Assembly: GCF_900106995.1 (NCBI RefSeq) | Contig: NZ_FNOK01000003.1 | Span: 62,001 to 126,000, forward strand | Length of the DNA: 64,000 bases | Direction of reading: 5' to 3' | DNA from: Saccharopolyspora shandongensis | GTDB taxonomy: Bacteria; Actinomycetota; Actinomycetes; Mycobacteriales; Pseudonocardiaceae | In this document: piece after piece, positions 6,671-59,836 of the stretch | Numbering within the stretch: position 1 is the first letter of the stretch | How the letters are laid out: every line of letters starts with the position of its first letter | Program-made: the position numbers and the translations under genes | The notes under the pieces: model-generated | Seen by the model: the letters and a program-made list of their open reading frames with translations, nothing else | What the model was told of the DNA's origin: nothing | Database searches by the model: none

Positions 6671-6860
6671 GGTTCTTGCTTTTGAAGCGGCGAAGCCGCT
6701 TAGCCCACCCTCGCAGCTCGCGCCGCCGCGGGTTCTCAGGTGGTGTCTCGCGAGGACAGCCCCGGCGTGGTGTATCGGACATACATGAGTCGGGGATCCC
6801 ACAGCGAGACGCCGCCTGAGGTTCCGCCACCCGCACCGCCAAGCAAAACGACCACGAACC
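6671..6860 (+). repeat. Dispersed structured element, copy A (REP-like palindrome plus long nested hairpin)
   Basis: This fills most of the 329-base gap 6551-6879 between two plus-strand genes; the first 120 bases of that gap show nothing I recognise. It starts with GGTTC and the palindrome GAAGCGGCGAAGCCGCTT (6684-6701). The outer hairpin arms are 6735-6751 (CTCAGGTGGTGTCTCGC) and 6804-6820, pairing over 17 bases with two T.G pairs (6741/6814 and 6744/6811). The inner stem 6760-6766 pairs with 6789-6795 with one G.T pair (6765/6790), and the tip is TGTAT/ATACA around loop CGGAC. The same scaffold recurs at 46.84 and 59.65 kb with different but complementary arms, and in shortened form at 39.22 kb. 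The element ends around GAACC at 6856-6860, a rough inverted copy of its start. Confidence 0.85.
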
Positions 6861-6879
6861 AGTCACGGAGGAACCAGTC

Positions 6880-8073
6880 ATGAGCATCAACCCGAACCCC
6901 GGCGTCCTGCTCTACCCGCGCCTGCGCAAGTCGCCGTTCTTCTACGCCTCGCGGCGGCACGGTGTCGGCCTCTACAGCGTGTACAACCACACCTACCACG
7001 CCCGCCACTACGGCGACCCGATCGGCGAGTACTGGGCGCTGCTGGAAGGCGTGACGCTGTGGGACGTCGGCGTCGAGCGGCAGGTGGAGATCACCGGACC
7101 CGACGCGTTCGAGTTCACCAACATGCTCGTGCCGCGAGACCTGACCAAGTGCAAGGTCGGGCAGTGCAAGTACGTGTTCGTCACCGCCGAGGACGGCGGC
7201 ATCATCAACGACCCGGTGCTGCTGCGGCTCGGCGAGAACCACTTCTGGCTGTCGCTGGCCGACAGCGACGTGCTGCTGTGGGCGAAGGGCCTGGCGCACA
7301 ACCTGGGGATGGACGTGCAGATCCGGGAGCCGGACGTCGGGCCGGTGCAGATCCAGGGGCCGAAGTCGCGGGACGTGCTGGTCGACCTGTTCGGCGAGTC
7401 CATCTTGGACGTTCCCTACTACTACGCCGTCGACCGCGAGCTCGACGGCATGCGGGTGGTGGTGTCGCGCACCGGCTACACCGCCGAGCTCGGCTACGAG
7501 ATCTACCTGCACGACGCGAGCCGCGACGGCGTGAAGCTGTGGGACGCAATCTGGGAGGCCGGGAAACCGCACGACCTGAAGGTGATCGGGCCGTGCCACA
7601 TCCGGCGCATCGAGGCCGGCATCCTGTCCTGGGGCTGCGACATCACCTACGACACGAACCCGTTCGAGGTGGGCTACGGCTTCGAGAAGACCTGGATGGT
7701 CGACCTCGACCAGGAGGCCGACTTCATCGGCAAGGCCGCCCTGCGGCGGATCAAGGACGAGGGCATCAGCCGCAAGCTCGTGGGCGTCGAGATCGGCGGC
7801 CCGAGCGTGGGTTCGTTCAACGACGGCGCGATGATCGACACCTTCGACGTGCACGACCCGCACGGCCTGCGCATCGGCGAGGTCACCTCGGCCTGCTACT
7901 CGCCGCGGCTGGAGCGCAACATCGGCTACGCGATGGTGCCGATCGCCTACCACGAGCTGGGCACCGAGCTGGTGGTGGACACCCAGCACGGCCCGCAGGA
8001 AGCGGTGGTGGTGGAGAAGCCGTTCCTGGATCCCACCAAGGACATCCCGAAAAAACTCGTCCGGACGGCGTGA
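6880..8073 (+). CDS. GcvT/DmdA-like tetrahydrofolate-dependent methyl (aminomethyl) transferase
   Basis: This 397-residue protein belongs to the GcvT fold: a folate-binding N-terminal half (about 40-290) and a C-terminal barrel (about 300-390). Stretches such as WDVGVERQVEITGPDA, KCKVGQCKYVF, LADSDVLLWAKGLA, IREPDVGPVQIQGPKS and the SRTGYTAELGYEIYL segment resemble the DmdA-like branch of the family (DMSP demethylase and relatives) more than glycine-cleavage T protein. It probably moves a methyl group from a methylated N or S compound to tetrahydrofolate. It has a clear GGAGGA ribosome binding site at 6868-6873 and is followed 16 bases later by the folate-reductase-like gene. The true substrate is unknown; glycine betaine, DMSP or another onium compound are all possible. 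Confidence 0.8.
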   Translation: MSINPNPGVLLYPRLRKSPFFYASRRHGVGLYSVYNHTYHARHYGDPIGEYWALLEGVTLWDVGVERQVEITGPDAFEFTNMLVPRDLTKCKVGQCKYVFVTAEDGGIINDPVLLRLGENHFWLSLADSDVLLWAKGLAHNLGMDVQIREPDVGPVQIQGPKSRDVLVDLFGESILDVPYYYAVDRELDGMRVVVSRTGYTAELGYEIYLHDASRDGVKLWDAIWEAGKPHDLKVIGPCHIRRIEAGILSWGCDITYDTNPFEVGYGFEKTWMVDLDQEADFIGKAALRRIKDEGISRKLVGVEIGGPSVGSFNDGAMIDTFDVHDPHGLRIGEVTSACYSPRLERNIGYAMVPIAYHELGTELVVDTQHGPQEAVVVEKPFLDPTKDIPKKLVRTA

Positions 8074-8089
8074 CGGGGAGGTGATCGCG

Positions 8090-8932
8090 ATGGACGCCAA
8101 CGCCGAGCTGCTGGAGCAGTACCTGATGAACGCCCGGTTCGAGGTGCTGCCGCTGCGCGGCGCGGTCGAGCAGGCCGAGCTGCTGCCGGCCGGGACGACC
8201 GTGACCGTCACCGCCTCCCCGTCGAAGGGCACCGAGGCGACGCTCGACGTCGCCGCCCAGCTGGTCGGCCGCGGCCTGCGCGCGGTGCCGCACCTGGCCG
8301 CCCGCCTGATCGCCGACACCGCGCACCTGACCGCGCTGCTGGACCGCGCGGACGGGCTCGGGTTGTCCGAGGTGTTCGTGGTGGCCGGTGACTCCCCCGA
8401 GCCGCGCGGCGGCTTCCCGGACGCGTTGGCGCTGCTGCGCGCGATGGACGAGCTGGGCAGGAGGCCCGCGCGAGTGGGCATCACCGGCTACCCCGAGCGG
8501 CACGCGTTCATCTCCGACGCCTCGACGATCCGCGCGATGGCCGAGAAGTCCCGCTACGCCGACTACGTCGTCTCGCAGATCTGCTACGACCCGCACACCG
8601 TGGCGGCCTGGATGACGGCCGTGCGGGCCCGCGGCCTGGCGCTGCCGATCCACATCGGGGTGCCGGGCGTGGTGGACGCGCACCGGCTGCTCCGGATCTC
8701 GCTGAAGATCGGGCTCGGCGAGTCGATGCGCTTCCTGCGCAAGCAGCACGGCGTGGTGTCGAAGCTGCTCACCCGCTACACGCCCGAGGAACTGCTCGGC
8801 GAGCTGTCCCCCTACCTCGCCGACCCGTCCCTCGGCATCGCGGGCTGGCACTTCTTCACGTTCAACGAGATCGCGAAGACCCTGCAATGGCGCCACGACC
8901 TGGTCGCCAGACTACGGGAGGTCCCCGCATGA
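8090..8932 (+). CDS. Methylenetetrahydrofolate reductase-like protein
   Basis: This 280-residue TIM-barrel protein resembles the MetF family. TVTASPSKGTEATLD, GLSEVFVVAGDSPEPRGGFPDALALL, RVGITGYPERH, VVSQICYDPHTVAAWMTAVRARGLALPIHIGVPGV and the final IAGWHFFTFNEIAKTLQW are characteristic. It would interconvert 5,10-methylene- and 5-methyl-THF. An in-frame GTG lies nine bases upstream (8081), but the ATG at 8090 has GGGGAGG correctly spaced (8 bases) and is preferred. The downstream formate-THF ligase overlaps its stop by four bases. Because its neighbours produce methyl- and methylene-THF, it may run in the oxidative direction here. That direction is inferred from context only. Confidence 0.85.
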   Translation: MDANAELLEQYLMNARFEVLPLRGAVEQAELLPAGTTVTVTASPSKGTEATLDVAAQLVGRGLRAVPHLAARLIADTAHLTALLDRADGLGLSEVFVVAGDSPEPRGGFPDALALLRAMDELGRRPARVGITGYPERHAFISDASTIRAMAEKSRYADYVVSQICYDPHTVAAWMTAVRARGLALPIHIGVPGVVDAHRLLRISLKIGLGESMRFLRKQHGVVSKLLTRYTPEELLGELSPYLADPSLGIAGWHFFTFNEIAKTLQWRHDLVARLREVPA

Positions 8933-10626
8933 ACATTCCGTCCGATTTGGACATCTCCCGGGCCACCGCGCTGCTGCCGCTGGAGGAAGTCGCGGCGCAG
9001 CTGGGCATCGGCGCGCACCTGCTCGAACCCTACGGGCACAGCGCGGCGAAGATCTCGCTGGACGCCCTCGACGAGCTGCCCGAGCGGCCGACCGCGCGCT
9101 ACGTCGTGGTCTCGGCCATCACGCCCACCCCGCTGGGCGAGGGCAAGACCACCACGACAGTGGGGCTCGGCCAGGCGCTGCGGCACCTCGGCAAGCGGTC
9201 CGCGGTGGCGATCCGGCAGCCGTCGATGGGCCCGACGTTCGGCATCAAGGGCGGCGCCGCGGGCGGCGGCTACAGCCAGGTGGTGCCGATGGAGGCGCTG
9301 AACCTGCACCTCACCGGCGACATGCACGCGGTCACCGCGGCGCACAACCTGCTGGCCGCGATGCTGGACAACCACCTGGACAAGGGGAATTCGCTGGGCA
9401 TCGACCCGAACCGGATCACCTGGCGGCGGGTGCTGGACGTCAACGACCGGGACCTGCGCAACATCGTCACGGGCCTGGGCGGCCGGCTCGACGGCACGCC
9501 GCGGCAGACCGGCTTCGACATCACGGCGGCCAGCGAGGTGATGGCGGTGCTCGCGCTTTCCACGTCGCTGCAGGACATGCGGCGACGGCTGGGCCGCATC
9601 GTCGTCGGCTACACCCGCGACGGCTCGCCGGTCAGCGCCGAGCAGCTGCGGGCGGCCGGCGCGATGACGGTGATCATGCGCGAGGCGATCAAGCCGAACC
9701 TGATGCAGACCACCGAGAACACGCCGGTGCTGGTGCACGCGGGGCCGTTCGGCAACATCGCGCACGGCAACTCGTCGGTGGTGGCCGACCGGATCGCCAG
9801 CCGCTGCGCGGACTACGTGGTCACCGAAGCGGGATTCGGCGCCGACATGGGCGCGGAGCGGTTCTTCAACATCAAGTGCCGCACGTCGGGCCTGCGCCCG
9901 GACGCGGCGGTGCTGGTGGCGACGGTGCGCGCGCTGAAGGCGCACTCCGGGCGCTACAAGGTGGTTGCGGGCAAGCCGCTGCCCGCGGCGATGCTCGCGG
10001 AGAACCCCGACGACGTGCTGGCCGGGGCGGCGAACCTGCGCAAGCAGATCGACAACATCCGCCTGCACGGGGTGTCGCCGGTGGTGGCGATCAACGCGTT
10101 CCCGACCGATTACCACAGCGAGCACGAGGCGATCCGGCAGGTCGCCGAGGCGGAGGGCGCGCGCGTCGCGATCAGCAACCACTTCCTGGAGGGCGGCAAG
10201 GGAGCGGTGGAGCTGGCCGAAGCGGTGGTCGCGGCGGCCGAGGAGCCGAACGGCTTCCAGCTGCTGTACCCGGATTCGGCGGACCTGCGGGCGAAGATCG
10301 AAACGATCGCGACGAAGGTGTACGGCGCGGACGGCGTGTCGTACCTGCCGGCGGCGGCCCGCGCCCTGGACGGCTACGAGGCGAACGGCTTCGGCGACCT
10401 GCCGGTGTGCATCGCCAAGACGCACCTGTCGCTGAGCTCGGACCCGGCGCTGCTCGGCGCCCCGACGGGCTGGACCCTCCCGGTCCGGGAGGTCAGGGCC
10501 TCTGTGGGTGCGGGCTTCATCTACCCGATCTGCGGCGAGATGCGGACGATGCCGGGTCTGGGCTCCCACCCGGCGGCGGAGGCGATCGACATCGACGACC
10601 ACGGCCAGATCATCGGCCTGAACTGA
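8929..10626 (+). CDS. fhs: Formate-tetrahydrofolate ligase
   Basis: This 565-residue enzyme (10-formyl-THF synthetase) catalyses formate + ATP + THF to 10-formyl-THF or the reverse. The signature PTPLGEGKTTTTVGLGQAL lies at about residue 65, and the second family pattern (RQPSMGPTFGIKGGAAGGGYSQV) and the conserved C-terminal VGAGFIYPICGEMRTMPGLG are present. Length is typical of the family. Start ATG 8929 overlaps the upstream stop (ATGA); a longer reading from 8887 would run deep into the previous gene. As the last gene of the plus-strand one-carbon cluster it could release formate from 10-formyl-THF with ATP gain. The folD step needed between it and its neighbour is not in this window. Confidence 0.95.
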   Translation: MNIPSDLDISRATALLPLEEVAAQLGIGAHLLEPYGHSAAKISLDALDELPERPTARYVVVSAITPTPLGEGKTTTTVGLGQALRHLGKRSAVAIRQPSMGPTFGIKGGAAGGGYSQVVPMEALNLHLTGDMHAVTAAHNLLAAMLDNHLDKGNSLGIDPNRITWRRVLDVNDRDLRNIVTGLGGRLDGTPRQTGFDITAASEVMAVLALSTSLQDMRRRLGRIVVGYTRDGSPVSAEQLRAAGAMTVIMREAIKPNLMQTTENTPVLVHAGPFGNIAHGNSSVVADRIASRCADYVVTEAGFGADMGAERFFNIKCRTSGLRPDAAVLVATVRALKAHSGRYKVVAGKPLPAAMLAENPDDVLAGAANLRKQIDNIRLHGVSPVVAINAFPTDYHSEHEAIRQVAEAEGARVAISNHFLEGGKGAVELAEAVVAAAEEPNGFQLLYPDSADLRAKIETIATKVYGADGVSYLPAAARALDGYEANGFGDLPVCIAKTHLSLSSDPALLGAPTGWTLPVREVRASVGAGFIYPICGEMRTMPGLGSHPAAEAIDIDDHGQIIGLN

Positions 10627-10630
10627 GGTG

Positions 10631-11479
10631 TCAGGCGTGCCGCGGGCCCAGATCGCGGGGAGCGGGGCCGTCGTAGGCGGGCAGCAGGGGGCGCGGCAGC
10701 GGGCCTTTGATGCGGGTGTTCTGGGACTTCTCCTCCCAGGCGTGGGAGAGGATGCCGACGCTGCGGGAGAGGACGAACAGCCCCCTGCCGAGTTCGGGCG
10801 GGAACCCGAGCTCGCGGTAGATGATGGCGGTCGCGCCGTCGATGTTCATCGGGACGGGGCGGCTGCGGCCCTGGGACAACGCGCGTTCCAGGGCTGTTCC
10901 GGCGCGCAGTGCCCGGCCGGGAACTTCCCCGGTCGTCACGGCCTCCTCCACCAGCGCCAGCAGCGGGTCGCGGCGTGGATCGCGCGGGTGGAACCGGTGA
11001 CCGAATCCGGGAACGTGGCGGCGGTCGGCGCGGTAGTCGGCCACGAGTCGTTCGGCCGCCGCGTCCAGATCGGCGCCCTGGGATGCGGCTTGTTCGAGAT
11101 CTGCCAGGACCTGCATGCATTGCTGACCGGCTCCGCCGTGCACGTCGCCGAGCAGGTTCACCCCGGTGGCGACGGCGTTGTTCAGGCCGAGTCCGCAGGT
11201 GGCCGCCATCCGGGCCGCGGCGATGGACGGCGCTTGGGGCCCGTGGTCGACGGCCGCGACCAGCGCGGCCTCCAGCAACCGGCGCTGGGCCGCGGTGGGG
11301 AGTTCGCCGCGCAGCATCAGCCAAATCGTGTCGGCGAAGGACAGCTGGCCGATCAGCTGCTCGACGGGGTAACCGCGGAGCAGGATCTCCCCCGGCCGGA
11401 TGCGGCTGACGCCGGTGCGCCACCAGCCGGTGACCTTGTCCTCGTACTCCTCTGCGGTGTCGAAGGCAGGGGTGTTCAT
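10631..11479 (-). CDS. Short citrate synthase-family protein (citryl-CoA lyase-like)
   Basis: This 282-residue protein has the citrate synthase fold but is much shorter than the usual 370-430 residues. Diagnostic segments include RGYPVEQLIGQLSFADTIWLML, the HGPQAPSIAAARMAATCG region, DVHGGAGQQCMQ, HVPGFGHRFHPRDPR (catalytic His region) and NIDGATAIIYRELGFPPELGRGLFVLSRSVGILSHAWEE. Short stand-alone members are often annotated as citryl-CoA lyase. It overlaps the stop of the CoA-transferase gene by four bases (ATGA 11479-11476), so the two act together. I infer that it cleaves (or forms) a citryl-CoA-like thioester made by that transferase. The two plus-strand and minus-strand genes at 10.63 kb converge with four bases between them. 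Confidence 0.75.
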   Translation of the reverse strand: MNTPAFDTAEEYEDKVTGWWRTGVSRIRPGEILLRGYPVEQLIGQLSFADTIWLMLRGELPTAAQRRLLEAALVAAVDHGPQAPSIAAARMAATCGLGLNNAVATGVNLLGDVHGGAGQQCMQVLADLEQAASQGADLDAAAERLVADYRADRRHVPGFGHRFHPRDPRRDPLLALVEEAVTTGEVPGRALRAGTALERALSQGRSRPVPMNIDGATAIIYRELGFPPELGRGLFVLSRSVGILSHAWEEKSQNTRIKGPLPRPLLPAYDGPAPRDLGPRHA

Positions 11480-12702
11480 ACCGCTCCTCCTTCGCGCAGC
11501 TCGGCGATTTCCTCGACGCCGTAGCCGAGTTCGGCGAGCAGATCGTCGGTGTGTTCGCCGAGCAGCGGTGGTGGGGCCTGCGGCCCGGGCGCAGCGCCCC
11601 GGACGTGGATCGGGCTGCCGAGCACGCGCAGCTCGCGCCCCGGGCTGCCGGGGAAGGGCAGCTCGTGGACGAAGTCCCGGGCGGCGATCTGCTCGTGGGC
11701 CAGCGCTTCCGGGACGGTCAGCACGCATGCCGCTGGAACCCCGGCGGAGGCCAGCAGCCGCTCCCATTCCGGCGCGGTCCGTGCGGCGAGGGCCTTCTCG
11801 AGCTCCGCGGTCAGCTCGTGGCGGTTCGTCTTGCGCGCCGCGCGTTCGGCGAAACGCGGGTCCTCGGCCAGTTCCGGGCGTTCCAGGATCCGGCACAGCG
11901 CGGTGAACTGGCGCTGTTCGTTGGCTGCGATGTTGAGCATGCCATCGGCGGTGGCGAACGTTCCCGACGGCGCCGCGGTGAAGTTGTCGTTGCCCATGGG
12001 GACCGGCTCCTGGCCGGCGATCAGCTGGTTGGAGACGACCCAGCCCATGGCGGTCAGCGCCGCCTCCAGCATGGAAACGTCGAGCCGGACGCCCTCGCCG
12101 GTGCGGTCGCGGTGCACGATCGCCGAGGCGATGGAGAACGCGGCGGCCATGCCGCCGAGGGTGTCGGCGACCGGGTAGCCCGCGCGCAGCGGCCCGGTTT
12201 CGGGCGTGCCGGTCACGCTCATCATCCCGGACAGGCCCTGCACGATCTGGTCGTACGCGGGCCGGTCGCGCAGCGGGCCGTCCTGACCGAAACCGGAGAT
12301 CGAGCAGCACACCAGCCCTCGGTTGGCTTCCCGCAGCACGTCCCAGCCGAGCCCGAGCCGATCCAGGACGCCGGGGCGGAAGTTCTCCACGAGCACGTCG
12401 GCCTGCCGCACGGCGCGAAGCAGGACCTCGCGCCCGCGCGGCGACTTGAGGTTGACCGTCAACGAACGCTTCCCGCTGTTCTGCGCCAGGAAGGAGGCAC
12501 CAAGGCCGTCCTCGTTCAGCGCCGGGTCCGCACCCAGCCGCCTGGCGAGATCGCCGGCACCGGGGATCTCCACCTTGACGACATCCGCTCCCAGCAGCGC
12601 CAGCTGGTACGCCGCGAAGGGCCCGGCCAGCACGTTGGTCAGGTCCAGCACGCGGACGCCGGCGAGCAGGTTGGCGGGACGCGGGGAGAGCTGTTCGCTC
12701 AC
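11476..12702 (-). CDS. CaiB/BaiF (class III) CoA-transferase
   Basis: This 408-residue class III CoA-transferase moves CoA between carboxylic acids. Motifs: RVLDLTNVLAGPFAAYQLALLGADVVKVE at the N-terminus, NSGKRSLTVNLKSPRGREVLLRAVRQADVLVENFRPGVLDRLGLG, then GFGQDGP and RPAYDQIVQGLSGMMSVTG. The catalytic aspartate expected after GFGQDGPLRDRPAYD is present (family knowledge). The GTG start at 12702 overlaps the IclR stop (GTGA) by four bases, so IclR, transferase and lyase-like genes form one unit. The neighbours suggest activation of an imported organic acid, possibly citrate or a methylated dicarboxylate; substrate specificity cannot be read from the sequence. Confidence 0.88.
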   Translation of the reverse strand: MSEQLSPRPANLLAGVRVLDLTNVLAGPFAAYQLALLGADVVKVEIPGAGDLARRLGADPALNEDGLGASFLAQNSGKRSLTVNLKSPRGREVLLRAVRQADVLVENFRPGVLDRLGLGWDVLREANRGLVCCSISGFGQDGPLRDRPAYDQIVQGLSGMMSVTGTPETGPLRAGYPVADTLGGMAAAFSIASAIVHRDRTGEGVRLDVSMLEAALTAMGWVVSNQLIAGQEPVPMGNDNFTAAPSGTFATADGMLNIAANEQRQFTALCRILERPELAEDPRFAERAARKTNRHELTAELEKALAARTAPEWERLLASAGVPAACVLTVPEALAHEQIAARDFVHELPFPGSPGRELRVLGSPIHVRGAAPGPQAPPPLLGEHTDDLLAELGYGVEEIAELREGGAV

Positions 12703-14960: not shown

Positions 14961-14966
14961 GGGACT

Positions 14967-45528: not shown

Positions 45529-46779
<1,251 letters not shown>

Positions 46780-46839
46780 GGTCTTCCTCAGCAGATACGT
46801 TGGGATCGGAAAGCTCCACGCGCCCAGTCGGGCCGAACG

Positions 46840-47010
46840 TCAGGCAAGCGGCGCCAGCCGCTTTCAACCGCCCTCGCAACCGGCACCGCCGCGGGTTCTC
46901 AGAAGCCTTCTCGCGAGGACAGCCCAGATGCCGCGTATTGGTCATACACAAGTCTGGGATCCCGGAGTCGAGAAGGCTTCTGAGGTTCCGCTACCCGCAC
47001 CGGCACGCAG
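46840..47010 (+). repeat. Dispersed structured element, copy C
   Basis: This lies in the 248-base gap between pdhB and pdhC, on the strand opposite to the operon. After a diverged left palindrome (AAGCGGCGCCAGCCGCTTT, 46846-46864) comes the outer hairpin: CTCAGAAGCCTTCTCG (46898-46913) pairs perfectly with CGAGAAGGCTTCTGAG (46969-46984). The inner stem CCCAGA (46923-46928) pairs with TCTGGG (46953-46958), extended by a T.G pair (46929/46952); the tip is GTAT/ATAC around loop TGGTC. Compared with copies A and D, outer-arm bases and inner-stem pair 4 changed on both sides together, preserving pairing. Confidence 0.85.
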
Positions 47011-47027
47011 AGCACCCGAAACCTCTC

Positions 47028-48023
47028 CTAGCGACGGCGGCCGACGGCGTCCAGCGTTTGGTGGACAGCGGTCGTAAGGGACTCGGCGGACGGCAGCGCG
47101 GCCCGCTCCAGCGGCTTGGCGTAGGGCAGCGGAACCTCCGCCGCGGCGACGCGACGCACCGGGGCGTCCAGGTAGTCGAACGCACCGTCCGAAATGGACG
47201 CGGCGACCTCCGCACCGATGCCGTAGGTCAGCCAGTCGTCCTCGGCGATCACGGCGCAGCCGGTCTTGCGCACCGACTCCACGACGGTGTCGCGGTCCAG
47301 CGGCCGCAGGCTCCGCAGGTCGACGACCTCGGCGTTGATGCCCTCTTCGGCCTGCAGCTTCTCGGCGACCTGCTGGGCGACCATGGCCATCCGCGAGTAG
47401 CCGATGATGGTGATGTCGGTGCCCTGCTTGGTCACCTTCGCCTTGCCGATCTCGGCGGGCTCGACGATGTCCGGGACCTCGCCCTTGGTGTTGTACAGCG
47501 CGAGGTTCTCCAGGAACAGCACCGGGTCGTTGTCCCGGATGGACGCCAGCAGCAGCGCCTTGGCGTCGGCCGGGGTGCTCGGCGCGACGACCTTCAGGCC
47601 CGGCACGAACGCGTAGTACAGCTCGATGTTCTGCGAGTGGGTGGCGCCCAGCTGCTGGCCGCCGCCGCCCGGCGTGCGCAACACCATCGGCACGCTGGTC
47701 TGCCCGCCGAACATGCCGTAGATCTTGGCCGCGTGGTTGACGATCTGGTCCAGCGCGATCAACGAGAAGTTGATCGTCATCAGTTCGACGACCGGCCGCA
47801 GGCCGAGCATGGCGGCGCCGACCGCGGCGCCGACGAAGCCCTCTTCGGCGATCGGGGTGTCGCGCACGCGCTTCTCGCCGAATTCCTTCAGCAGCCCGGC
47901 GGTGATCTTGTAGGAGCCTTCGAAGACCCCGATTTCCTCGCCGATGAGGAAGACGTCCTCATCGCGCAGCATTTCTTCGCGAAGCGTGTCGTGCAACGCT
48001 TGGCGATAGGAGATGACGGCCAA
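47028..48023 (-). CDS. pdhB: Pyruvate dehydrogenase E1 component beta subunit
   Basis: This 331-residue subunit pairs with E1 alpha to decarboxylate pyruvate. Hallmarks: SYRQALHDTLREEMLRDEDVFLIGEEIGVFEGSYKIT, RVRDTPIAEEGFVGAAVGAAMLGLRPVVELMT, GQQLGATHSQNIELYYAFVPGLKVVAPSTPADAKALL, and PLPYAKPLERAALPSAESL. The start is TTG at 48023, with AGGAGA eight bases upstream; no ATG or GTG gives a better-placed reading, though a 48092 ATG is in frame and would add 23 non-homologous residues. It lies 111 bases after pdhA with a strong hairpin in the gap, which may tune subunit stoichiometry. Confidence 0.92.
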   Translation of the reverse strand: MAVISYRQALHDTLREEMLRDEDVFLIGEEIGVFEGSYKITAGLLKEFGEKRVRDTPIAEEGFVGAAVGAAMLGLRPVVELMTINFSLIALDQIVNHAAKIYGMFGGQTSVPMVLRTPGGGGQQLGATHSQNIELYYAFVPGLKVVAPSTPADAKALLLASIRDNDPVLFLENLALYNTKGEVPDIVEPAEIGKAKVTKQGTDITIIGYSRMAMVAQQVAEKLQAEEGINAEVVDLRSLRPLDRDTVVESVRKTGCAVIAEDDWLTYGIGAEVAASISDGAFDYLDAPVRRVAAAEVPLPYAKPLERAALPSAESLTTAVHQTLDAVGRRR

Positions 48024-48056
48024 GGGTTTTTCTCCTGCACAAAAGCATTGGTGAAC

Positions 48057-48095
48057 CCCGTGGATCTCTCCATTGGCGTCAGAGAGATCCACGGG
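48057..48095 (-). promoter_or_regulatory. Perfect 14-bp hairpin between pdhA and pdhB
   Basis: CCCGTGGATCTCTC (48057-48070) and GAGAGATCCACGGG (48082-48095) pair perfectly across an 11-base loop, inside the operon gap upstream of pdhB. Without a T-run it is more likely an mRNA processing, stabilising or translation-control structure than a full terminator. Confidence 0.7.
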
Positions 48096-50828: not shown

Positions 50829-50847
50829 CCCAGACTTCTCGGACAAC

Positions 50848-52318: not shown

Positions 52319-53599
52319 TCAGCCGCGTCTGAGCACCGCGGTGCCCAACAGCGTGATGACAGCGGTACCGGCGGCGAACCACGGAACCGCGGTCAGGTGC
52401 CCGAGCGCCGCGAGCCCCTCCGCCAGCAGCGGGAAGGTGCCGCCGAACAGCGCCACCGCGAGGGTGAACGGCACGCCCATCGCCACGACCCGCACCGCCA
52501 CCGGGAAGACCTCGCTGTAGAGCACGTTCGCCACGGCCGTCGTCGGCGCGACGCCGAGCACCAGGTAGCAGGTCGCCACCGCCCACATCGGCAACCAGCC
52601 CTGAGCGAGCGCGGTCATCAGCGGCACCGTGCTCAACGCCAGCAGCAGGGCCCCGATGCGGAACACCGCCATGCCGCCGAAGCGATCGGCCAGCAGCCCG
52701 GAAACCACCATCGCGGCGATCAACGCGAGCAGGCTTGGGATCATCGCCAGGTCGGACGCGGCGGAATGGACGACTCCGACCTGCGCGGCGTACTCCGGCA
52801 GGTAGACGGTGCCGAAGTAGACGCCGACCGTCGTGCCGGTGGTCATCAGGAACACCGCGAGCATGTTCCGGGCGTGCTCCAGCAGCTTCGGCCGCGGCGC
52901 CGAGGTTGCCCTACCGGCCTCGAACTCCTCGCTCTCGGCGGCGATGCGTCGCACCCAGAACGCCACGAGCCCGAAGAGCGCCGCCACGACGAATGCGATC
53001 CGCCAGCCGCCGTTGGAGACCCCCTGCGTGCCCTGGAAGAGCACCAGCGCGCCGACCACCGCAAAGCAGAGGATGTTGCCGATGAACGCCCCGGTGTAGG
53101 ACAGGCCGCTGTAGAAGAACTTGCGGCGCGGCGGCGCGGTCTCGGTGATGTAGGCCGCGACGCTCGGGTTCTCCCCGCCCATCGCGATCCCCTGCAAGGC
53201 GCGCAGCAGCACCAGAAGCACCGGAGCCGCGACCCCGATCGTCGCCGCGGTGGGCAGCGCCGCGATCAGCAGGCTGCCGAGGCAGATCGTGGCCATGCTG
53301 ACGATCAATGCGAACCGCCGGCCCCGCGCGTCGGCGATCCGGCCGAGCAGGTAACTGCCGAACGGCCGGACCACGAAGCCCACCGCGAATCCCGCGTACG
53401 CCGAGAGCAGCTTGGTCAGCTCGTCGTTCCCGGCGAACATCTGCGATGCGAAAAACGGCGCCAGAATCGCGTAGATCGTCCAGTCGAACGATTCGACGAT
53501 CCCGCCGACCGTCCCGGCGATCAGCTCGCGACGTCCCTTCGGCGAAACCGCCGCTCGCCCTGGCCGCGCTGCCAGGGCCTCATCCACCTGCGCCACCAC
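52319..53599 (-). CDS. MFS transporter, cassette copy 1
   Basis: This 426-residue major facilitator resembles the metabolite:H+ symporter/ProP group, with GGIVESFDWTIYAILAPFFASQMF, RPFGSYLLGRIADARGRRFALIVSMATICLGSLLIA, LLRALQGIAMGGENPSVAAYITETAP and FGGMAVFRIGALLLALSTV. Twelve hydrophobic segments fit. It is preceded by a palindrome CACCTCCGAGGTG that overlaps its ribosome binding site (53601-53613), and the GTG start at 53599 is followed directly by a second GTG. It is homologous to the MFS gene at 56000. It is divergent from the Lrp-1 regulator and probably imports the substrate of the M20 enzyme. Confidence 0.88.
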   Translation of the reverse strand: MVAQVDEALAARPGRAAVSPKGRRELIAGTVGGIVESFDWTIYAILAPFFASQMFAGNDELTKLLSAYAGFAVGFVVRPFGSYLLGRIADARGRRFALIVSMATICLGSLLIAALPTAATIGVAAPVLLVLLRALQGIAMGGENPSVAAYITETAPPRRKFFYSGLSYTGAFIGNILCFAVVGALVLFQGTQGVSNGGWRIAFVVAALFGLVAFWVRRIAAESEEFEAGRATSAPRPKLLEHARNMLAVFLMTTGTTVGVYFGTVYLPEYAAQVGVVHSAASDLAMIPSLLALIAAMVVSGLLADRFGGMAVFRIGALLLALSTVPLMTALAQGWLPMWAVATCYLVLGVAPTTAVANVLYSEVFPVAVRVVAMGVPFTLAVALFGGTFPLLAEGLAALGHLTAVPWFAAGTAVITLLGTAVLRRG

Positions 53600-53600
53600 T

Positions 53601-53613: not shown

Positions 53614-53702
53614 TGTTCGTGCGGAGCAGAGTGCGAGCCGGTGTAGCTACCGGAAAGGAACCTGCGCGAGAATGCAGGAAAAAGCGCGAGGGCTGGAGGG
53701 CG

Positions 53703-54743
53703 ATGCAGGAAAAGGAGCGAACGCTGGACGAGCTGGACCGCTCGATCCTGCACGCGCTGCAGATCTCGCCCCGCGCCTCGTGGACCGAGGTGGGCCGCGT
53801 GCTCGACGTGGACGCGGTCACCGCGGCGCGGCGCTGGGATCGGCTGCGCAGCACCGGCCAGGCCTGGACGACCTGCTACCCGGGGGTCCGGCTGATCGAC
53901 GCGATCTTCACGGCTTACGTCGAGGTCGACGTGCAGTCCGGTCGGGCGATGGAGGTGGCCCGGACGCTGGCGACCTACCCGCAGGTGGCCACCGTCGAAC
54001 ACCTGGCGGGCGGCCGGGACCTGCTGGTCATGGTGCTGATCCAGGATCTCGGCGCGCTGTCGGAGCTGGTGTCCGAACGAATCTCGGCACTGCCCGGGGT
54101 CGCACGCACCCGCGCCGCGCTGGGTACCCGGGTGTTCACCGAAGGCTCCCGGTGGCGACTGCGCAGCCTCACCACCGCCCAGCAGCGGCAGCTGGCCCGA
54201 CCGGCCGCCGACCAGCCGCGCGCCAACCTCGACGAGCACGACCACCGGCTGATCACCGCCCTGTCCCGGGACGCCCGGGCACCTGCGGTCGAGCTGGCCC
54301 GGGAGACCGGGCTGAGCGCGCCGAACGTCCGCCGCCGCATCGCCGGCCTTACGCACCACGGAGACGCCGTGCTGCGGTGCGAGGTCGCCCGCAACCTCAC
54401 GGAATGGCCGATCGCCGCCACCCTCTGGGCCAGCGTCCCGCCCGGCGAGCTCGACAAGGTCGTGCAGGGCATGGGCGCCCTGCCCGAACTGCGGATGTGC
54501 TCGTCGGTCACGGGCCCGCACAACCTGCTGTTCACGCTGTGGCTGAAATCCGTGGCCGACTTGGCGCGCCTGGAAGCGCTGCTGGCCGACCGCCTGCCCC
54601 AACTCCACCTCGTGGACCGGGCGGTGACGCTGCGCATGGTGAAGCTGATGGGCAGGCTGCTCGACGAGGACGGCCACGAGTCCGGCTGCGTCCCGATCAA
54701 CCCGTGGTCCCCGCCGAAGCAGCTGCCGGATCCCCGCCGGTAG
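53703..54743 (+). CDS. Double-domain Lrp/AsnC regulator, cassette copy 1
   Basis: This 346-residue protein contains two Lrp units in tandem. Unit one: DELDRSILHALQISPRASWTEVGRVLDVDAVTAARRWDRL plus a RAM domain (VEVDVQSGRAMEVARTLATYPQVATVEHLAGGRDLLVMVL). Unit two: DEHDHRLITALSRDARAPAVELARETGLSAPNVRRRIAGL plus a second RAM domain (LWASVPPGELDKVVQGMGALPELRMCSSVTGPHNLLFTLWLKSVADLARLEALL). ATG 53703 is chosen by comparison with copy 2 and the family length. It diverges from the MFS-M20 genes, which it probably controls in response to an imported amide or amino acid. It is a single-chain pseudo-dimer, unlike the usual one-domain Lrp. Confidence 0.9.
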   Translation: MQEKERTLDELDRSILHALQISPRASWTEVGRVLDVDAVTAARRWDRLRSTGQAWTTCYPGVRLIDAIFTAYVEVDVQSGRAMEVARTLATYPQVATVEHLAGGRDLLVMVLIQDLGALSELVSERISALPGVARTRAALGTRVFTEGSRWRLRSLTTAQQRQLARPAADQPRANLDEHDHRLITALSRDARAPAVELARETGLSAPNVRRRIAGLTHHGDAVLRCEVARNLTEWPIAATLWASVPPGELDKVVQGMGALPELRMCSSVTGPHNLLFTLWLKSVADLARLEALLADRLPQLHLVDRAVTLRMVKLMGRLLDEDGHESGCVPINPWSPPKQLPDPRR

Positions 54744-54770
54744 GGGCGGCACCGAATCGGCACCGCCCCT
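54742..54770. terminator. Bidirectional terminator between Lrp copy 1 and M20 copy 2
   Basis: AGGGGCGG (54742-54749) pairs with CCGCCCCT (54763-54770), with CCGA/TCGG inside, in the 32-base convergent gap. It separates the two duplicated cassettes. Confidence 0.7.
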
Positions 54771-54775
54771 GCGGG

Positions 54776-55981
54776 TCAGCCGCCCGACTGCTGGCGTTGC
54801 ACCGCCAGCGCCGCGTATGCGACGGCTCCGTCGCCGAGGACCGCGTCGTCGAATTGGGCGCGGGGCGAGTGGTTGTTCGGCGCGTTCGCCACATCGAGGT
54901 CGGCCGGGCAGGCGCCGAGGGCGATCATCGCGCCCGGCACCTCGTCGAGGACTCGGGAGAAGTCCTCGGAACCGGCGACCGGGTTGGGCGCCGGGGCGAA
55001 GCGCTCCTCGCCGTGCAACTCGCGCAAGGTGTCGGTCACGAACGACGTCTCGGCCACGTCGTTGACCGTCACCGGGTACAACTCGACGAACTCCGCGTCC
55101 AGCTCGGCTCCGTGCGCGGCCGCGATGCCCTCGCACACCCGGATCGAGCCGTCCTTGACCACCGCCTGGGCCTCCGGCGAGAACGACCGGACCGTCGCGG
55201 CGAAGGTGACCTCGTCGGGGATGACGTTCTCCTGGGTGCCGCCGTGGATCATGCCCACCGTCAGCACGACCGGGTCGAAGATGTCGAACCGGCGGGTGAC
55301 GAACGACTGGAGCGCGGTGACCATTTCGCACGCCACCGGCACCGGGTCCACCGCCCGGAACGGCGCCGAACCGTGGCCGCCGCGCCCGCGGACGGTCACC
55401 CGCAACCGGTTCGACGCCGAGAGCATCGGCCCGCCGCGAGTCGTGAACACCCCGCGCTTGATCCACGACGACATCACGTGCAGGGCGTAGGCCGCGTCGG
55501 GCTTGCGGCCGCTGGCCTCGAGCAGCCCCTCCTCGATCATCCGCGCCGCGCCGTCGTAGCCCTCTTCCCCGGGCTGGAACATGAACACCACATCGCCTGC
55601 GAGCTGATCCCGGCGCGGGGCCAGCAGTTTCGCCGCACCCAGCAGCATCGTGGTGTGCAGGTCGTGCCCGCAGGCGTGCATCCGCCCGTCGCCGGCGGCG
55701 AAGTCCAGCCCGGTCTCCTCCGCGACGGGCAACGCGTCCATGTCCCCGCGCAGCAGCACCGTCGGGCCGGGCCGGGCCCCGCGCAGCACTGCCGTGACGG
55801 AGCTGACCGATTCCCCGGTGGACACCTCCAGCCCAAGACCATCCAATTCGGACAGAACACGCTCCTGGGTGCGCGGCAGCTGCAACCCCAGCTCCGGAAT
55901 CTGGTGCAGGTCGTGGCGGATCTGCACCAGATCCGGGTGCAGCGCACGGGCATCGTCTAGCAAGGTCGACAAGGAAGTCAT
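54776..55981 (-). CDS. M20 family amidohydrolase (hippurate hydrolase-like), cassette copy 2
   Basis: This 401-residue hydrolase is a paralog of copy 1 (51045-52259), with the same metal-binding segments GDMDALPVAEET, RMHACGHDLHTTMLLGAAKLLAPRR, FQPGEEGYDGAARM and AGSEDFSRVLDEVPGAMIALGAC. Differences cluster in the middle lid domain and near the N-terminus, for example LHVMSSWIKRGVFTT against LHVISGLRGGLFTT, hinting at changed substrate size or selectivity. It lies 18 bases after its MFS partner on the same strand. The start ATG 55981 is sound. Substrate unknown. Confidence 0.9.
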   Translation of the reverse strand: MTSLSTLLDDARALHPDLVQIRHDLHQIPELGLQLPRTQERVLSELDGLGLEVSTGESVSSVTAVLRGARPGPTVLLRGDMDALPVAEETGLDFAAGDGRMHACGHDLHTTMLLGAAKLLAPRRDQLAGDVVFMFQPGEEGYDGAARMIEEGLLEASGRKPDAAYALHVMSSWIKRGVFTTRGGPMLSASNRLRVTVRGRGGHGSAPFRAVDPVPVACEMVTALQSFVTRRFDIFDPVVLTVGMIHGGTQENVIPDEVTFAATVRSFSPEAQAVVKDGSIRVCEGIAAAHGAELDAEFVELYPVTVNDVAETSFVTDTLRELHGEERFAPAPNPVAGSEDFSRVLDEVPGAMIALGACPADLDVANAPNNHSPRAQFDDAVLGDGAVAYAALAVQRQQSGG

Positions 55982-55999
55982 GGCAATCCTTCTCCGAAT

Positions 56000-57274
56000 T
56001 CAGTCCTGTTTGAACAGCGCGGTGCCCACCAGCGCGATGGCGGCGACGGTGGCGGCCACCCAGGGCACCGCGGCGAGGTACCCGGCCGCGCCGAGGCCTT
56101 GCGCCAGCAGCGGGAAGGTGCCGCCGAACAACGCGATCGAGAGGGTGGACGGCACACCCATGCACACCACCCGCACCTCGACCGGGAATCCGCGCGCGGA
56201 CAGCACGTTGGCCAGCGCGATGGTCGGCGCGACACCGAGCACCAGGTAGAGGGTCGTCACCGCCCACACCGGCAACCAGCCCTGCGCGAGCGCCGTCATC
56301 AGCGGCACCGTGCACAACGCCAGCAGCACCAACCCGATCCGGAACACCCGCATGCCGCCGAAGCGGTCCGCCAGGATCCCGAACACCGCCATCGCGGCGA
56401 TCAGCAGCAGCAGGCTGGGGATCATGCTCAGGTTCGAGCTCGCGGCCGGCGCCGCACCGACCTGCGCCGCGTATTCCGGCATGTAGGTCGTGCCCAGGTA
56501 GTAGCCGACCGTCACCCCGGTGGTCATCAGGAACACCGCGATCATGTTCCGCATGTGCCCGGCCAGCTTCGGCCGCTGCACTTCGCGCTTGCCGCTCTCG
56601 AACTCGCCGCTCTCCGCCGCGATGCTGCGCACCCAGAACGCCAGCACACCGAACACCGCCGCGATGACGAACCCGATCCGCCAGCCGCCGTCCACGACGC
56701 CGGGCTTGCCCATCACGAGCAGCAGCACGCCCACGACGGCGAAGCACAGGACGTTGCCGATGATCACGCCGCTGTAGGACAGTGCGCTGAACAAGAACTT
56801 GCGGTTCGACGGTGCCGTCTCGCTGATGTACGCGGCCACGCTGGGCGCTTCCCCGCCCATCGCGACGCCCTGCAGCGCCCGCAGCAGCACCAGCAGCGCC
56901 GGAGCCGCGACCCCGATCGACGCCGCAGTGGGCAGCAGCGCGATCAGCAGGCTGCCGAGGCAAATGGCGATCATGCTGACCATCAGCGCGAACCGGCGGC
57001 CTCGCGCGTCGGCGAGCCGCCCCAGCAGGTAGCTGCCGAAGGGCCGGACCACGAAGCTCACCGCGAAGCCCGCGTAGGCGGCCAGCAGCTTGGTCAGCTC
57101 GTTGTTCCCGGCGAACATCTGCGACGCGAAGTACGGCGCCAGCACCGCGTAGATCGTCCAGTCGAAAGACTCGACGACGCCGCCCACCGTCCCGGCGAGC
57201 AGCTCCCGGCGCCCCTTCACCGAGACCGCTGATCTCCCTGGTCGCGTTGCCAGGGTGTCGTCCACCTGCGTCAC
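56000..57274 (-). CDS. MFS transporter, cassette copy 2
   Basis: This 424-residue major facilitator is a paralog of copy 1: GGVVESFDWTIYAVLAPYFASQMFAGNNELTKLLAAYAGFAV, RPFGSYLLGRLADARGRRFALMVSM, LLRALQGVAMGGEAPSVAAYISETAP. The GTG start at 57274 is spaced five bases from GGAGG in the palindrome CACCTCCGAGGTG (57278-57290); an alternative GTG two codons upstream at 57280 would leave no room for a binding site. It is divergent from the second double Lrp gene. The last of the transport and hydrolysis gene pair, it probably feeds the adjacent M20 enzyme. Confidence 0.88.
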   Translation of the reverse strand: MTQVDDTLATRPGRSAVSVKGRRELLAGTVGGVVESFDWTIYAVLAPYFASQMFAGNNELTKLLAAYAGFAVSFVVRPFGSYLLGRLADARGRRFALMVSMIAICLGSLLIALLPTAASIGVAAPALLVLLRALQGVAMGGEAPSVAAYISETAPSNRKFLFSALSYSGVIIGNVLCFAVVGVLLLVMGKPGVVDGGWRIGFVIAAVFGVLAFWVRSIAAESGEFESGKREVQRPKLAGHMRNMIAVFLMTTGVTVGYYLGTTYMPEYAAQVGAAPAASSNLSMIPSLLLLIAAMAVFGILADRFGGMRVFRIGLVLLALCTVPLMTALAQGWLPVWAVTTLYLVLGVAPTIALANVLSARGFPVEVRVVCMGVPSTLSIALFGGTFPLLAQGLGAAGYLAAVPWVAATVAAIALVGTALFKQD

Positions 57275-57277
57275 GTT

Positions 57278-57290
57278 CACCTCCGAGGTG
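57278..57290. promoter_or_regulatory. Palindromic operator over the MFS ribosome binding site, copy 2
   Basis: The same CACCTC-C-GAGGTG palindrome as at 53601-53613 is placed over the GGAGG ribosome binding site of the second MFS gene, with the same neighbouring CGGAGCAG and CGCGAGAATGCA segments. Retention in both copies while surrounding bases differ suggests selection. Confidence 0.6.
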
Positions 57291-57379
57291 CTTTCATTCG
57301 GAGCAGCGTGCGACCCGGCGGCAAAAGTCGATAGAAACCCGCGCGAGAATGCATGGAAAAGCTCGAAGGGCAGGTCCGG

Positions 57380-58414
57380 ATGCACGAAACTTCACTCGAC
57401 GAGCTGGACCGCTCGATCCTGCACGCGCTGCAGATCTCGCCGCGCGCCACCTGGACCGAGATCGGTGGCGTGCTCGGCGTGGATTCGGCCACCGTCGGGC
57501 GGCGCTGGGAACGGCTGCACGCGGCGGGTCTCGCCTGGACGACCTGCTACCCCGGGATGCGGCTGGCCGGCTCGATCTGCATGGCCTTCATCGAGATCGA
57601 CGTGCAGTCCGGGCAGCAGGTGGCGGTCGGCCGCGAGCTCGCGACCTACCCGCAGGTGATCACCGTCGAGCACATGGCGGGCGGCCGGGACCTGCTGATC
57701 ACCGTGATGATCCGGGATCTCGGCGCGCTCTCCGAACTGCTGTCCGACCGCATCTCACCGCTGCCGGGCGTCATGCGCACCCGCGCCGCGCTGGGCACCA
57801 AGGTCTTCACCGAGGGATCCAGCTGGCGGCTCCGCGCGCTGACGCCATCCCAGCAGCGCCGACTGACCCACCCGACCGCGACGGACCTGCCGCCCGCGAC
57901 CGACCTCGAAGAACGCGACCGCAGGCTGATCACCGCGCTGTCCCGGAACGGCCGGGTGACCGCGGTCGAGCTCGCCCAGGAGACCGGTCTGAACCCGCCC
58001 AGCGTGCGCCGGCGGCTGGCCGGGATGACGCACAACGGCGGCCTGTCGCTGCGCTGCGAGATCGCGCGCGACCTGACCGACTGGCCGGTCTCGGCGAGCC
58101 TGTGGGCGAGCGTGCCGCCGGGACAGCTGGACAAGGTGGTGCAAGGCCTGCGGGCGCTGCCCGAGCTCCGGCTGTGCGCATCCGTCACGGGCCCGCAGAA
58201 CCTGCTGTTCACGGTGTGGCTGAAATCGGTGGCGGACTTGGGCCGCCTGGAAGCGCTGCTCGGCGAGCGCCTCCCCCAACTGCAGCTGGTCGACCGAGCG
58301 GTGGCGCTCCGGCAGGTCAAGCTGATGGGCAGGCTCCTGGACGACAACGGCCACGCCGAGGGCTGCGTCCCGATCGACCCCTGGCTACCCCCGAAGTCCC
58401 TACCGGCCGCCTAG
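57380..58414 (+). CDS. Double-domain Lrp/AsnC regulator, cassette copy 2
   Basis: This 344-residue paralog of the regulator at 53703 has the same two-unit layout: DELDRSILHALQISPRATWTEIGGVLGVDSATVGRRWERL with RAM domain one, and EERDRRLITALSRNGRVTAVELAQETGLNPPSVRRRLAGM with RAM domain two (LWASVPPGQLDKVVQGLRALPELRLCASVTGPQNLLFTVWLKSVADL). ATG 57380 (MHETSLDELD) corresponds to the start used in copy 1; an in-frame ATG 27 bases upstream is also possible. Its stop shares bases with the stop of the converging PucR-type gene. It probably controls the second MFS-M20 pair. Confidence 0.9.
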   Translation: MHETSLDELDRSILHALQISPRATWTEIGGVLGVDSATVGRRWERLHAAGLAWTTCYPGMRLAGSICMAFIEIDVQSGQQVAVGRELATYPQVITVEHMAGGRDLLITVMIRDLGALSELLSDRISPLPGVMRTRAALGTKVFTEGSSWRLRALTPSQQRRLTHPTATDLPPATDLEERDRRLITALSRNGRVTAVELAQETGLNPPSVRRRLAGMTHNGGLSLRCEIARDLTDWPVSASLWASVPPGQLDKVVQGLRALPELRLCASVTGPQNLLFTVWLKSVADLGRLEALLGERLPQLQLVDRAVALRQVKLMGRLLDDNGHAEGCVPIDPWLPPKSLPAA

Positions 58415-59619
58415 TCCCGGAGGCCGTCGCGGAGGCGCAGCGCGGACAGCGCCAGCGACAGCGACACGTACGCCGAGCGGCCGTAGAGGGGTTGGCCGAT
58501 CAGCGACGTGATGCGGTGCAGGCGGTTGAGGACCGTGTTGCGGTGGCAGTGGAGGCGGACCGCCGCGTTGGCCGTCGAGCAGTTCTCCTCCAGCCACGCC
58601 GCCAGGGTGTCCAGCAGCATGTCGCGTTCCTTGACCGGCAGCTCCAGGATCGGACCGAGCTGGGACTCCAGCATCCGCTGCGCCAGGTCCGGCGACTGCA
58701 CCAGCAGCGCCTCCGGATACCGCTCCTCCAGGGTCACCAGCTCCGCGGCGCCGTACGACGAGGTGCCCAGCGTGGTGAGCGCGAGCTGGTGGGCGAGCCC
58801 CACCTCCGCGAGACCGCGCACCGGCGGCGACACCGCGACCCGGCCGCGCGCCAGCGGTCGCAGCGCGTCCAGCGCGAGGTCCTTGCTCCGCTGCTCCAGC
58901 GCCACCAGGCCCACCAGCGAATCGGCGCGCACCTGCCACACGGAGCGGAAGTGCAGGGCGCTCAAGGCGTCCTGGTGCCCGCGCAGCGCGAAGCCGCCGT
59001 CGCTGGTCAGGTCGGCGACGATCACCAGGTACCGCCCGCCGGTGGGCAGGTCGAGCTCCTTCGCGGTGCGCTGCGCGAAGGCGATGTCGCGCGCGCGACC
59101 CGCGAGCAGGTCCTCGACCATGGCGTGGCGCCGCTGGTCGTCGCGGCGCAGCCGCTCGAGCTCGGTGTTGCGGTAGGACGTCGACAGCGTCGAGGACAGC
59201 CCGTCGATGACCGTCCAGATCGACGTCGCGACGCCCAGCACCGAGTCGGGGTCGGCGCCGTCCTGGTGCGCCTGGTCGACCAGCGCCTCCCAGGCGATCC
59301 GGCCGCCCAGCCGGAACGTCCGCAGCATCACCTCCAGCGGCACGCCCTGTTCGGCGCGGCGGCGGCCGATCGCGGCCGCCACGTCGTCGCCGTCCGGCCC
59401 GGGCACCTCGCCGCTGAGGATCTGCAGGATGCGTTCGAGGTACTGCCGGCAGCCCTCCCAGAGGTCCTCCTTGGGAACGGGGCTGTAGTCGGTCCACTCC
59501 GGGTTGTCGGTGAAGATCGCGGCCATCAACCGCTCGGTGAGAGCGGGCACGTCGGCCAGGCGGGCCCGGGCCAGCGCGTGGGTGACTTCGGCGGCGGAGT
59601 CGGCAGGATCAGCTACCAC
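58411..59619 (-). CDS. PucR/CdaR-type transcriptional regulator
   Basis: This 402-residue regulator has a C-terminal PucR helix-turn-helix (about 345-400: DMLLDTLAAWLEENCSTANAAVRLHCHRNTVLNRLHRITSLIGQPLYGRSAYVSLSLALSALRL), which is the family's hallmark, and a central GGDEF-like sensory region (about 170-300) with YLVIVADLTSDGGFALRGHQD. The N-terminal 150 residues are helical with RRRAEQGVPLEVMLRTFRLGGRIAWEALVDQA. The GTG start at 59619 (VADPADSAAE) is chosen because upstream sequence is the repeat element; no good ribosome binding site is seen, so the start is uncertain by a few codons. It may regulate neighbouring amide or purine catabolism. Confidence 0.85.
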   Translation of the reverse strand: MVADPADSAAEVTHALARARLADVPALTERLMAAIFTDNPEWTDYSPVPKEDLWEGCRQYLERILQILSGEVPGPDGDDVAAAIGRRRAEQGVPLEVMLRTFRLGGRIAWEALVDQAHQDGADPDSVLGVATSIWTVIDGLSSTLSTSYRNTELERLRRDDQRRHAMVEDLLAGRARDIAFAQRTAKELDLPTGGRYLVIVADLTSDGGFALRGHQDALSALHFRSVWQVRADSLVGLVALEQRSKDLALDALRPLARGRVAVSPPVRGLAEVGLAHQLALTTLGTSSYGAAELVTLEERYPEALLVQSPDLAQRMLESQLGPILELPVKERDMLLDTLAAWLEENCSTANAAVRLHCHRNTVLNRLHRITSLIGQPLYGRSAYVSLSLALSALRLRDGLRD

Positions 59620-59647
59620 ACCCAGGAACGATACCGGCCACCCGCTG

Positions 59648-59836
59648 TTCTTCTTTGAAGCGGCGCAGCCGCTTAGCCCACCCCCACAACCGGCACCGCC
59701 GCGGGTTCTCAGGCGTCTTCTCGCGAGGACAGCCCCGACGTGGTGAATTGGCCATTCATGATGTCGGGGATCCCACAGCGAGAAGACGCCTGAGGTTCCG
59801 CCACCCGCACCGCCACGCAAAACGAGCCTGGAACAC
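59648..59836 (+). repeat. Dispersed structured element, copy D
   Basis: This occupies most of the 224-base gap between the PucR-type gene and tesB. It begins TTCTTCTTTGAAGCGGCGCAGCCGCTTAG with palindrome AAGCGGC-GCA-GCCGCTT (59658-59674). Outer arms CTCAGGCGTCTTCTCGC (59708-59724) and GCGAGAAGACGCCTGAG (59778-59794) pair perfectly over 17 bases. The inner stem CCCCGAC/GTCGGGG (59733-59739 with 59763-59769) is perfect, extended by a G.T (59740/59762) and a T-A pair; the tip is TGAAT/ATTCA around loop TGGCC. The right end GCCACGCAAAACGAGCCTGGAAC matches copies A and B closely. Confidence 0.88.

Follow-up and report, generated by a model that had tools for sequence, protein, structure and literature searches.

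A family of nested-hairpin repeats adjoining stop codons in Pseudonocardiaceae, probably short non-autonomous mobile elements

We analyzed a 64,000-nt stretch of the Saccharopolyspora shandongensis genome (contig NZ_FNOK01000003.1, positions 62,001 to 126,000; this whole stretch is called the window below), which holds three intergenic copies, A, C, and D, of an element built around a long nested hairpin. The right end of copy A is adjoined by a minus-strand TGA (plus-strand TCA at 6863-6865), upstream of a gene with a GcvT domain (6880-8073). Copy C lies antisense between an E2-like gene starting at 46779 and a minus-strand E1-beta-like gene (47028-48092), to which the stop codon at its right end belongs; the stop codon at copy D is that of a minus-strand acyl-CoA thioesterase-like gene (59844-60704). 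The three copies, whose parts are listed in Table 1, belong to a widespread dispersed family with strong covariation in the hairpin, a strand preference in its wobble pairs, adjacency to stop codons, polymorphism at orthologous sites, and, in two genomes (G001 and G098), an orientation bias relative to replication.

Table 1. Parts of the three element copies in the window
Feature	Position	Strand	Basis
Copy A, left REP-like hairpin AAGCGGCGAAGCCGCTT	6685..6701	+	sequence; placement as in most copies of the same genome
Copy A, core (outer stem, internal loop, inner stem, tip)	6722..6850	+	covariance model R1, 148.4 bits; fold
Copy A, right end	6850..6865	+	sequence; boundary deduced from the other copies
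Copy C, left REP-like hairpin AAGCGGCGCCAGCCGCTT	46846..46863	+	sequence
Copy C, core	46885..47014	+	covariance model R1, 144 bits; fold
Copy C, right end	47015..47027	+	directly precedes stop codon, plus-strand CTA 47028-47030
Copy D, left REP-like hairpin AAGCGGCGCAGCCGCTT	59658..59674	+	sequence
Copy D, core	59695..59824	+	covariance model R1, 153.2 bits; fold
Copy D, right end	59825..59843	+	directly precedes stop codon, plus-strand TCA 59844-59846

The element is roughly 190 to 310 bp long and consists, in order, of a left hairpin resembling repetitive extragenic palindromic (REP) sequences (AAGCGGC..GCCGCTT), a GC-rich stretch, the long nested hairpin, a second GC-rich stretch, and a right end that often reads CGAGCCTGGAAACA. 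The internal loops of the long hairpin are nearly constant (left, GCGAGGACAG; right, GATCCC followed by two more bases and AG), and the left hairpin occupies the same place in most copies of the window's genome (G000). A previous sequence-only reading of this DNA had recognized the scaffold common to the three copies, and its sequences and coordinates proved correct, including the outer-arm middles (GGTGGTG in A, GAAGCCT in C, GGCGTCT in D), the inner change from C-G to A-T, and the tips TGTAT/ATACA and TGAAT/ATTCA. The covariance model R1, built from 119 copies, found A, C, and D as the sole full-length sites in the window; the next matches were their own reverse strands (28 to 49 bits), beyond which nothing fell below E = 0.08. 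Because A, C, and D are among the training copies, they match R1 by construction, so this search establishes the lack of a fourth full copy and does not by itself prove that the three are related. The element is modular: a right-arm variant, CAACTCCCGCAGGGGGGCCGC, replaces CTGAGGTTCCGC at loci L016, L024, L027, L030, and others, and left-arm variants carry an extra small hairpin (L120, L160, and L210). The stretch separating copy A from the start codon at 6880 contains the word GAACCAGTCA twice, 15 nt apart (6856-6865 and 6871-6880).

G000 (10.15 Mb, 134 contigs) contains 215 sites that match the 17-base core word TCTCGCGAGGACAGCCC with at most 3 mismatches, 57 of them exactly, against 39 for the reversed word, and all 40 of the candidates scored (from 381) in a BLAST search of this genome with copy D matched. 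A pattern scan of named genomes gave at least 101 matching stretches. Among the 80 matches listed, all but 3 came from eight Saccharopolyspora species (soli, hirsuta, elongata, indica, oryzae, spinosa, rosea, and kobensis); the others were from Halopolyspora and Amycolatopsis, both confirmed by R1 (113 and 119 bits), and from a Desulfocurvus metagenome-assembled genome (L155), which had no R1 match and was therefore taken as chance. R1 matched in 56 of 200 Pseudonocardiaceae genomes searched, covering 13 of 46 genera; with 17 candidates scored per genome, these counts are floors. An exact pattern of the two loops had 5, 21, 24, 30, 67, 91, 146, and 210 sites in eight genomes, with 0 or 1 per strand for the reversed control, and four of the sites listed look unrelated (one in G001, one in G018, and two in G098). 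The 210 exact-core sites belong to G137 (genus g46), with 105 on each strand; most of those listed have near-identical inner stems (CTTTTTCCC..GGGAAAAAG), a sign of recent amplification, and show no clear orientation bias. Neither the window nor five loci of other genomes had an Rfam match at gathering score (the best weak match, DUF3800-IV, reached 20.6 bits against a gathering score of 60.7), there was no match in plasmid and phage collections, and no paper on the element was found in the literature searched, which covered few subscription journals. Within these searches, the previous description of the element as dispersed and undescribed stands, with up to about 200 copies per genome.

We assessed covariation in two alignments. 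Alignment A1 comprises 119 copies, of which G000 supplies 54 and other species 65, out of 172 eligible ones (those absent are 22 beyond the first 150 and 31 others, nearly all with a longer variant arm). Of the cells at its 32 pairs, 98.1% are paired, and both sides have changed at 14 pairs, in 283 cells; none of 500 shuffles attained any of five measures. Alignment A3, which spans 8 genera with 30 sequences (A, C, and D together with 27 taken from other genomes), has 39 pairs with 97.7% of cells paired and both sides changed at 20 pairs, in 175 cells; 0 of 500 shuffles attained four of the measures and 1 of 500 the fifth. When partners were slid by 1 to 3 columns, just 35 to 56% of cells were paired in the two alignments. 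At six variable outer-arm bases, tested in the 116 of 216 copies that have both anchors, a copy's own arms pair in 95.8% of cases (G-T counted) versus 72.7% after permutation, the highest of 5000 permutations being 76.7%. Near-perfect arms are common. Most of the 65 named rows of A1 come from a pattern in which the loops and the initial inner pairs are fixed, so that their constancy arises partly by construction, and the A3 rows were found with R1, a model that favors the structure. Covariation, as expected of a structured RNA, thus exceeds shuffled and slid controls in tests that ignore kinship; since the rows are related, alignment cells are not independent events. The compensatory change read earlier from three copies therefore holds with more copies aligned: arms are not identical in all copies, and covariation is not lost on wider alignment.

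The wobble pairs tell the strands apart. Among non-Watson-Crick cells in A1, 169 are G-T (75 from one pair) and 31 are A-C (14 from one probably misaligned pair), after exclusion of two pairs with G-T in almost every copy; the figures for A3, with three constant G-T pairs excluded, are 44 and 8. Since neutral transitions would yield G-T and A-C alike, the excess of G-T points to conserved folding of the element's plus strand, in a count that does not separate RNA from single-stranded DNA. RNA folding z scores are -5.3, -5.6, and -7.6 for the plus strands of A, C, and D and -2.3, -7.3, and -6.3 for their reverse strands; contrary to the plus-strand preference, copy C folds better on its reverse strand. 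Covariation in 8 genera and the bias of G-T over A-C towards one strand support the previous proposal that the folded single strand is what is kept.

Two further properties, position beside stop codons and orientation to replication, go beyond what that reading had observed. Read on the minus strand, TAA, TAG, or TGA adjoins the right end of the element, and this trinucleotide is very often the stop codon of a gene. Of 91 rows for G000, a few being incomplete or overlapping one another, 60 have a right-hand gene that converges on the element, 28 have one that points away, and 3 have none called; gene calling relied on a simple script based on third-position GC content, so that single assignments may be wrong. 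In the convergent rows, the distance from the core end to the stop codon has a median of 18 nt (quartiles 17 and 20), and a stop codon lies within 40 nt in 52 of the 60 (TGA in 33, TAG in 13, and TAA in 6). The left end shows no such spacing in the 91 rows. Copies antisense between tandem genes form the largest G000 class, 39 versus 17 sense. Among 29 loci from the R1 search of other genomes (L326 left out, some being orthologous pairs and one coming from G000), 19 have a stop codon 4 to 24 nt from the core end. Copies without an adjacent gene stop have one of the three trinucleotides immediately beyond the right end in 32 of 56 cases, versus 7.75 for more distant windows. The corresponding values for stop-adjacent copies are 70 of 90 and 10.0, with 26 for the reverse-complement trinucleotides.

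For orientation, we located dnaA in six genomes. In G001, a complete Saccharopolyspora genome, the plus strand of the element points towards dnaA in 54 of 70 copies (p = 6e-6), and the gene adjoining a stop-adjacent copy is on the leading strand in 36 of 40 cases, versus 153 of 295 genes from 20 sampled regions (p = 5e-7). Exact-pattern sites listed, unrelated ones left out, are in the biased orientation in 52 of 66 cases in G001 and 19 of 22 in G098, and R1 matches listed in 6 of 7 in G072 and 6 of 6 in G033. One Saccharopolyspora genome and one from another genus thus show a strong bias, and in a third genus it is suggestive. An orientation tied to the replication fork, as in IS200/IS605-like elements, is seen in G001 and G098 and is not significant in G137.

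Copies are gained and lost: in relatives, orthologous sites are filled, empty, or scarred. The one clean case among 11 empty-site comparisons is a 251-bp S. indica copy that the corresponding S. kobensis site lacks; this case shows a 7-bp repeat (one mismatch) that includes the stop codon. The copy C site was compared with 21 relatives: it is filled in G008, lacks the hairpin in G018 (lost), and has a gap of 26 to 30 nt in 19, including the closest relative, G004 (97% identical at this locus). The stop codon there is TGA (plus-strand TCA) in all 19 empty relatives and TAG in G000 and G008. Copy C (window 46777-47030) is common to two more distant species (L254 and L261) and missing in the closest ones, a distribution that needs recombination, parallel joining, or loss. 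At the copy D site, where 9 of the 21 loci could not be aligned across, G004 (98% identical) has 8 nt versus 197 in the query, and G007 and G020 retain a piece of the right end that we read as a deletion scar. Some derivatives have the left and right modules without the long hairpin (L119:3364-3465, L164:5489-5550, L173:307-401, and L261:1432-1500), the last joined at GCACCGC direct repeats flanking the hairpin. Among the right-hand genes of G000 and G001 copies (89 and 69 compared), 10 related pairs with >50% identity are common to both.

The position and orientation of the copies bear on the possibility of a domesticated 3'-end element, whose transcribed hairpins would be selected beside the stops of well-expressed, hence leading-strand, genes and would stop, stabilize, or regulate transcripts or translation, like the stop-proximal REPs of Escherichia coli. 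The stop-codon spacing in G000 and in other genomes is what such an element would show, and because the orientation bias is carried by stop-adjacent copies, with a leading-strand preference at these only, selection at such genes is a serious rival. One report finds that REPs of E. coli stall ribosomes when they lie within 15 nt of a stop codon (PMC12306157). However, the conserved folding is on the plus strand, antisense to the gene whose stop it adjoins, 19 of 21 relatives do without copy C, and just 10 right-hand gene pairs are common to G000 and G001. We consider this explanation rather unlikely, although less so than the other alternatives.

A mobile origin raises the question of the mover. 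The sequence-only reading had offered a structured RNA, a REP-like or miniature inverted-repeat transposable element (MITE)-like mobile element, and a processing site; the mobile element fits best, whereas the linked Y1 (TnpA_REP) helper that it had pointed to was not found in G000, the one genome tested. Y1_Tnp matches occur there at four places, three intact and one broken, and neither an element copy (within 1.5 kb on each side) nor a related hairpin was seen in these loci. Among orphan modules in 302 loci, no autonomous form was seen in which the left and right modules enclose a gene.

A second candidate mover is an IS5-like insertion sequence (IS) whose transposase has DUF4096 and DDE_Tnp_1 domains. 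G001 has a complete copy of it, whose two ends match in inverted orientation, and in G000 it is seen only in part. Were the family a MITE of this IS, a DDE transposase would move copies by their ends as double-stranded DNA, with the hairpin a passenger or a regulatory part. The IS end does resemble the long left end of three element copies (83 to 84% over 42 to 44 nt), both ends of L010 and L024 read like IS ends, and some long copies sit in the same CTATAG palindromes as the IS. Yet the IS-like left end occurs in a minority of copies only (just 23 matches with at most 3 mismatches in G000, IS ends included), terminal repeats are weak overall, there is no excess of target-site duplications, and a double-stranded DNA mover leaves the covariation of the core and the strand bias unexplained; we judge this origin distinctly unlikely. 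Terminal inverted repeats were rejected as a general feature of the family, as the mean was 8.08 versus 7.26 permuted (133 copies), a weak excess that came largely from a small number of copies that lie in target palindromes or have clear terminal repeats. As to the palindromes, some long-left copies and the IS sit at the CTATAG or CTAG center of another palindrome (about GTGnGynCTTTG..GCTATAGC..CAAAG..; L010, L024, L025, L201-L206, L251, and L252), which looks like a second repeat or a terminator that may serve as a landing site.

It is highly improbable that template-switch hairpin correction (quasipalindrome mutation) keeps the arms matched without selection: hairpin-less or shortened derivatives do show replication acting on the palindrome, and arms are often near-perfect, but such correction is blind to G-T versus A-C, of which G-T is about five times commoner, and the internal loops remain unpaired and nearly constant.

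We propose that the copies probably form a family of short non-autonomous mobile elements of Pseudonocardiaceae with a REPIN- or MITE-like hairpin, joined beside stop-like trinucleotides in an orientation tied to replication. A putative enzyme supplied in trans would recognize the folded strand, and joining would favor stop-like trinucleotides; copies at real stop codons may survive because the gene is left intact. The fork-linked orientation could arise if joining, or loss, acted on one strand at the replication fork. A bolder version, which we put forward only tentatively, is a hairpin that joins one strand of the fork in a replication-coupled manner beside stop-like trinucleotides. Its recognition would depend on structure more than on sequence, its mover would belong to a class of enzymes with no link so far to repeats of this type, and real stop codons would be its safe harbors throughout the bacterial family.

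Several observations weigh against a mobile family of this kind. No helper gene was found linked to the element, and target-site duplications show no excess over permutation (126 and 182 copies). Of the empty-site comparisons, 10 of 11 are not clean and have 26 to 201 nt of other sequence in place of the element. The orientation bias in G001 is confined to stop-adjacent copies, the other 30 splitting 18 to 12, and among the sites listed in the first 2 Mb of G137 it is not significant, either in the amplified subfamily (26 of 44) or in the others (7 of 10). Reverse-complement trinucleotides are likewise raised in copies without an adjacent gene stop (19 of 56), so A+T content may explain part of the stop-like signal, and 153 copies without a recognizable right-end word lie outside the trinucleotide count. 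Finally, the lagging-strand template would carry the minus strand and not the folded plus strand, a poor simple fit to movement of the IS200/IS605 type.

Apart from the element, ARAGORN predicted a tRNA-Gly (TCC) at 52980-53072 of the window; at 93 nt, it is unusually long for tRNA-Gly.

How REP-like repeats spread, and why many adjoin stop codons, is an unsettled question. In the present family, related genomes hold hundreds of natural copies, with a covariation record of the folded strand and a fork-tied orientation signal. Whether stop-codon repeats result from target choice and survival or serve a function at the ends of mRNAs thereby becomes directly testable, and the family provides a strong covariance model for searching an antibiotic-rich bacterial group.

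REPs and REPINs are described in PMC3116915 as short, palindromic, extragenic, and multi-copy, with a hairpin in single-stranded DNA or mRNA and compensatory changes in the spacer arms, and PMC12306157 places REPs near stop codons. The element likewise consists of short palindromic units in many copies dispersed between genes. It differs from REPIN/RAYT systems in that G000 has no linked Y1 (TnpA_REP) gene, that its conserved words are internal loops and the stem base rather than two inverted REP words at the ends, which vary, that its arms covary over the whole outer stem, and that it is recognizable across genera. With IS5-family MITEs, it shares the lack of an internal gene and, in long-left copies, an end with the IS5-like IS; the match at both ends is clear for some of these only, most copies have no IS-like end, target-site duplications are not in excess, and the core structure is conserved among genera. 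The element thus works like a REPIN or a MITE, and because the linked RAYT (in G000) and the inverted REP words were not found and target duplications were not in excess, we file it as neither. ERIC, BOX, and Correia-type intergenic repeats are similar in size class, dispersal, and palindromic, modular make-up, and belong to other lineages with other sequences. Integron attC sites also lie after a stop codon and are recognized by the folded strand opposite to the gene; the element is not in cassette arrays, and no attC core was seen by eye (no integrase was sought), so the likeness is an analogy only. The ends of IS200/IS605 and other lagging-strand single-stranded DNA elements have subterminal hairpins and are coupled to the replication fork (PMC6006769), whereas our element has no transposase inside and keeps its folding on the strand other than the lagging-strand template. 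Set beside these systems, the family looks like a new sort of hitch-hiking mobile repeat.

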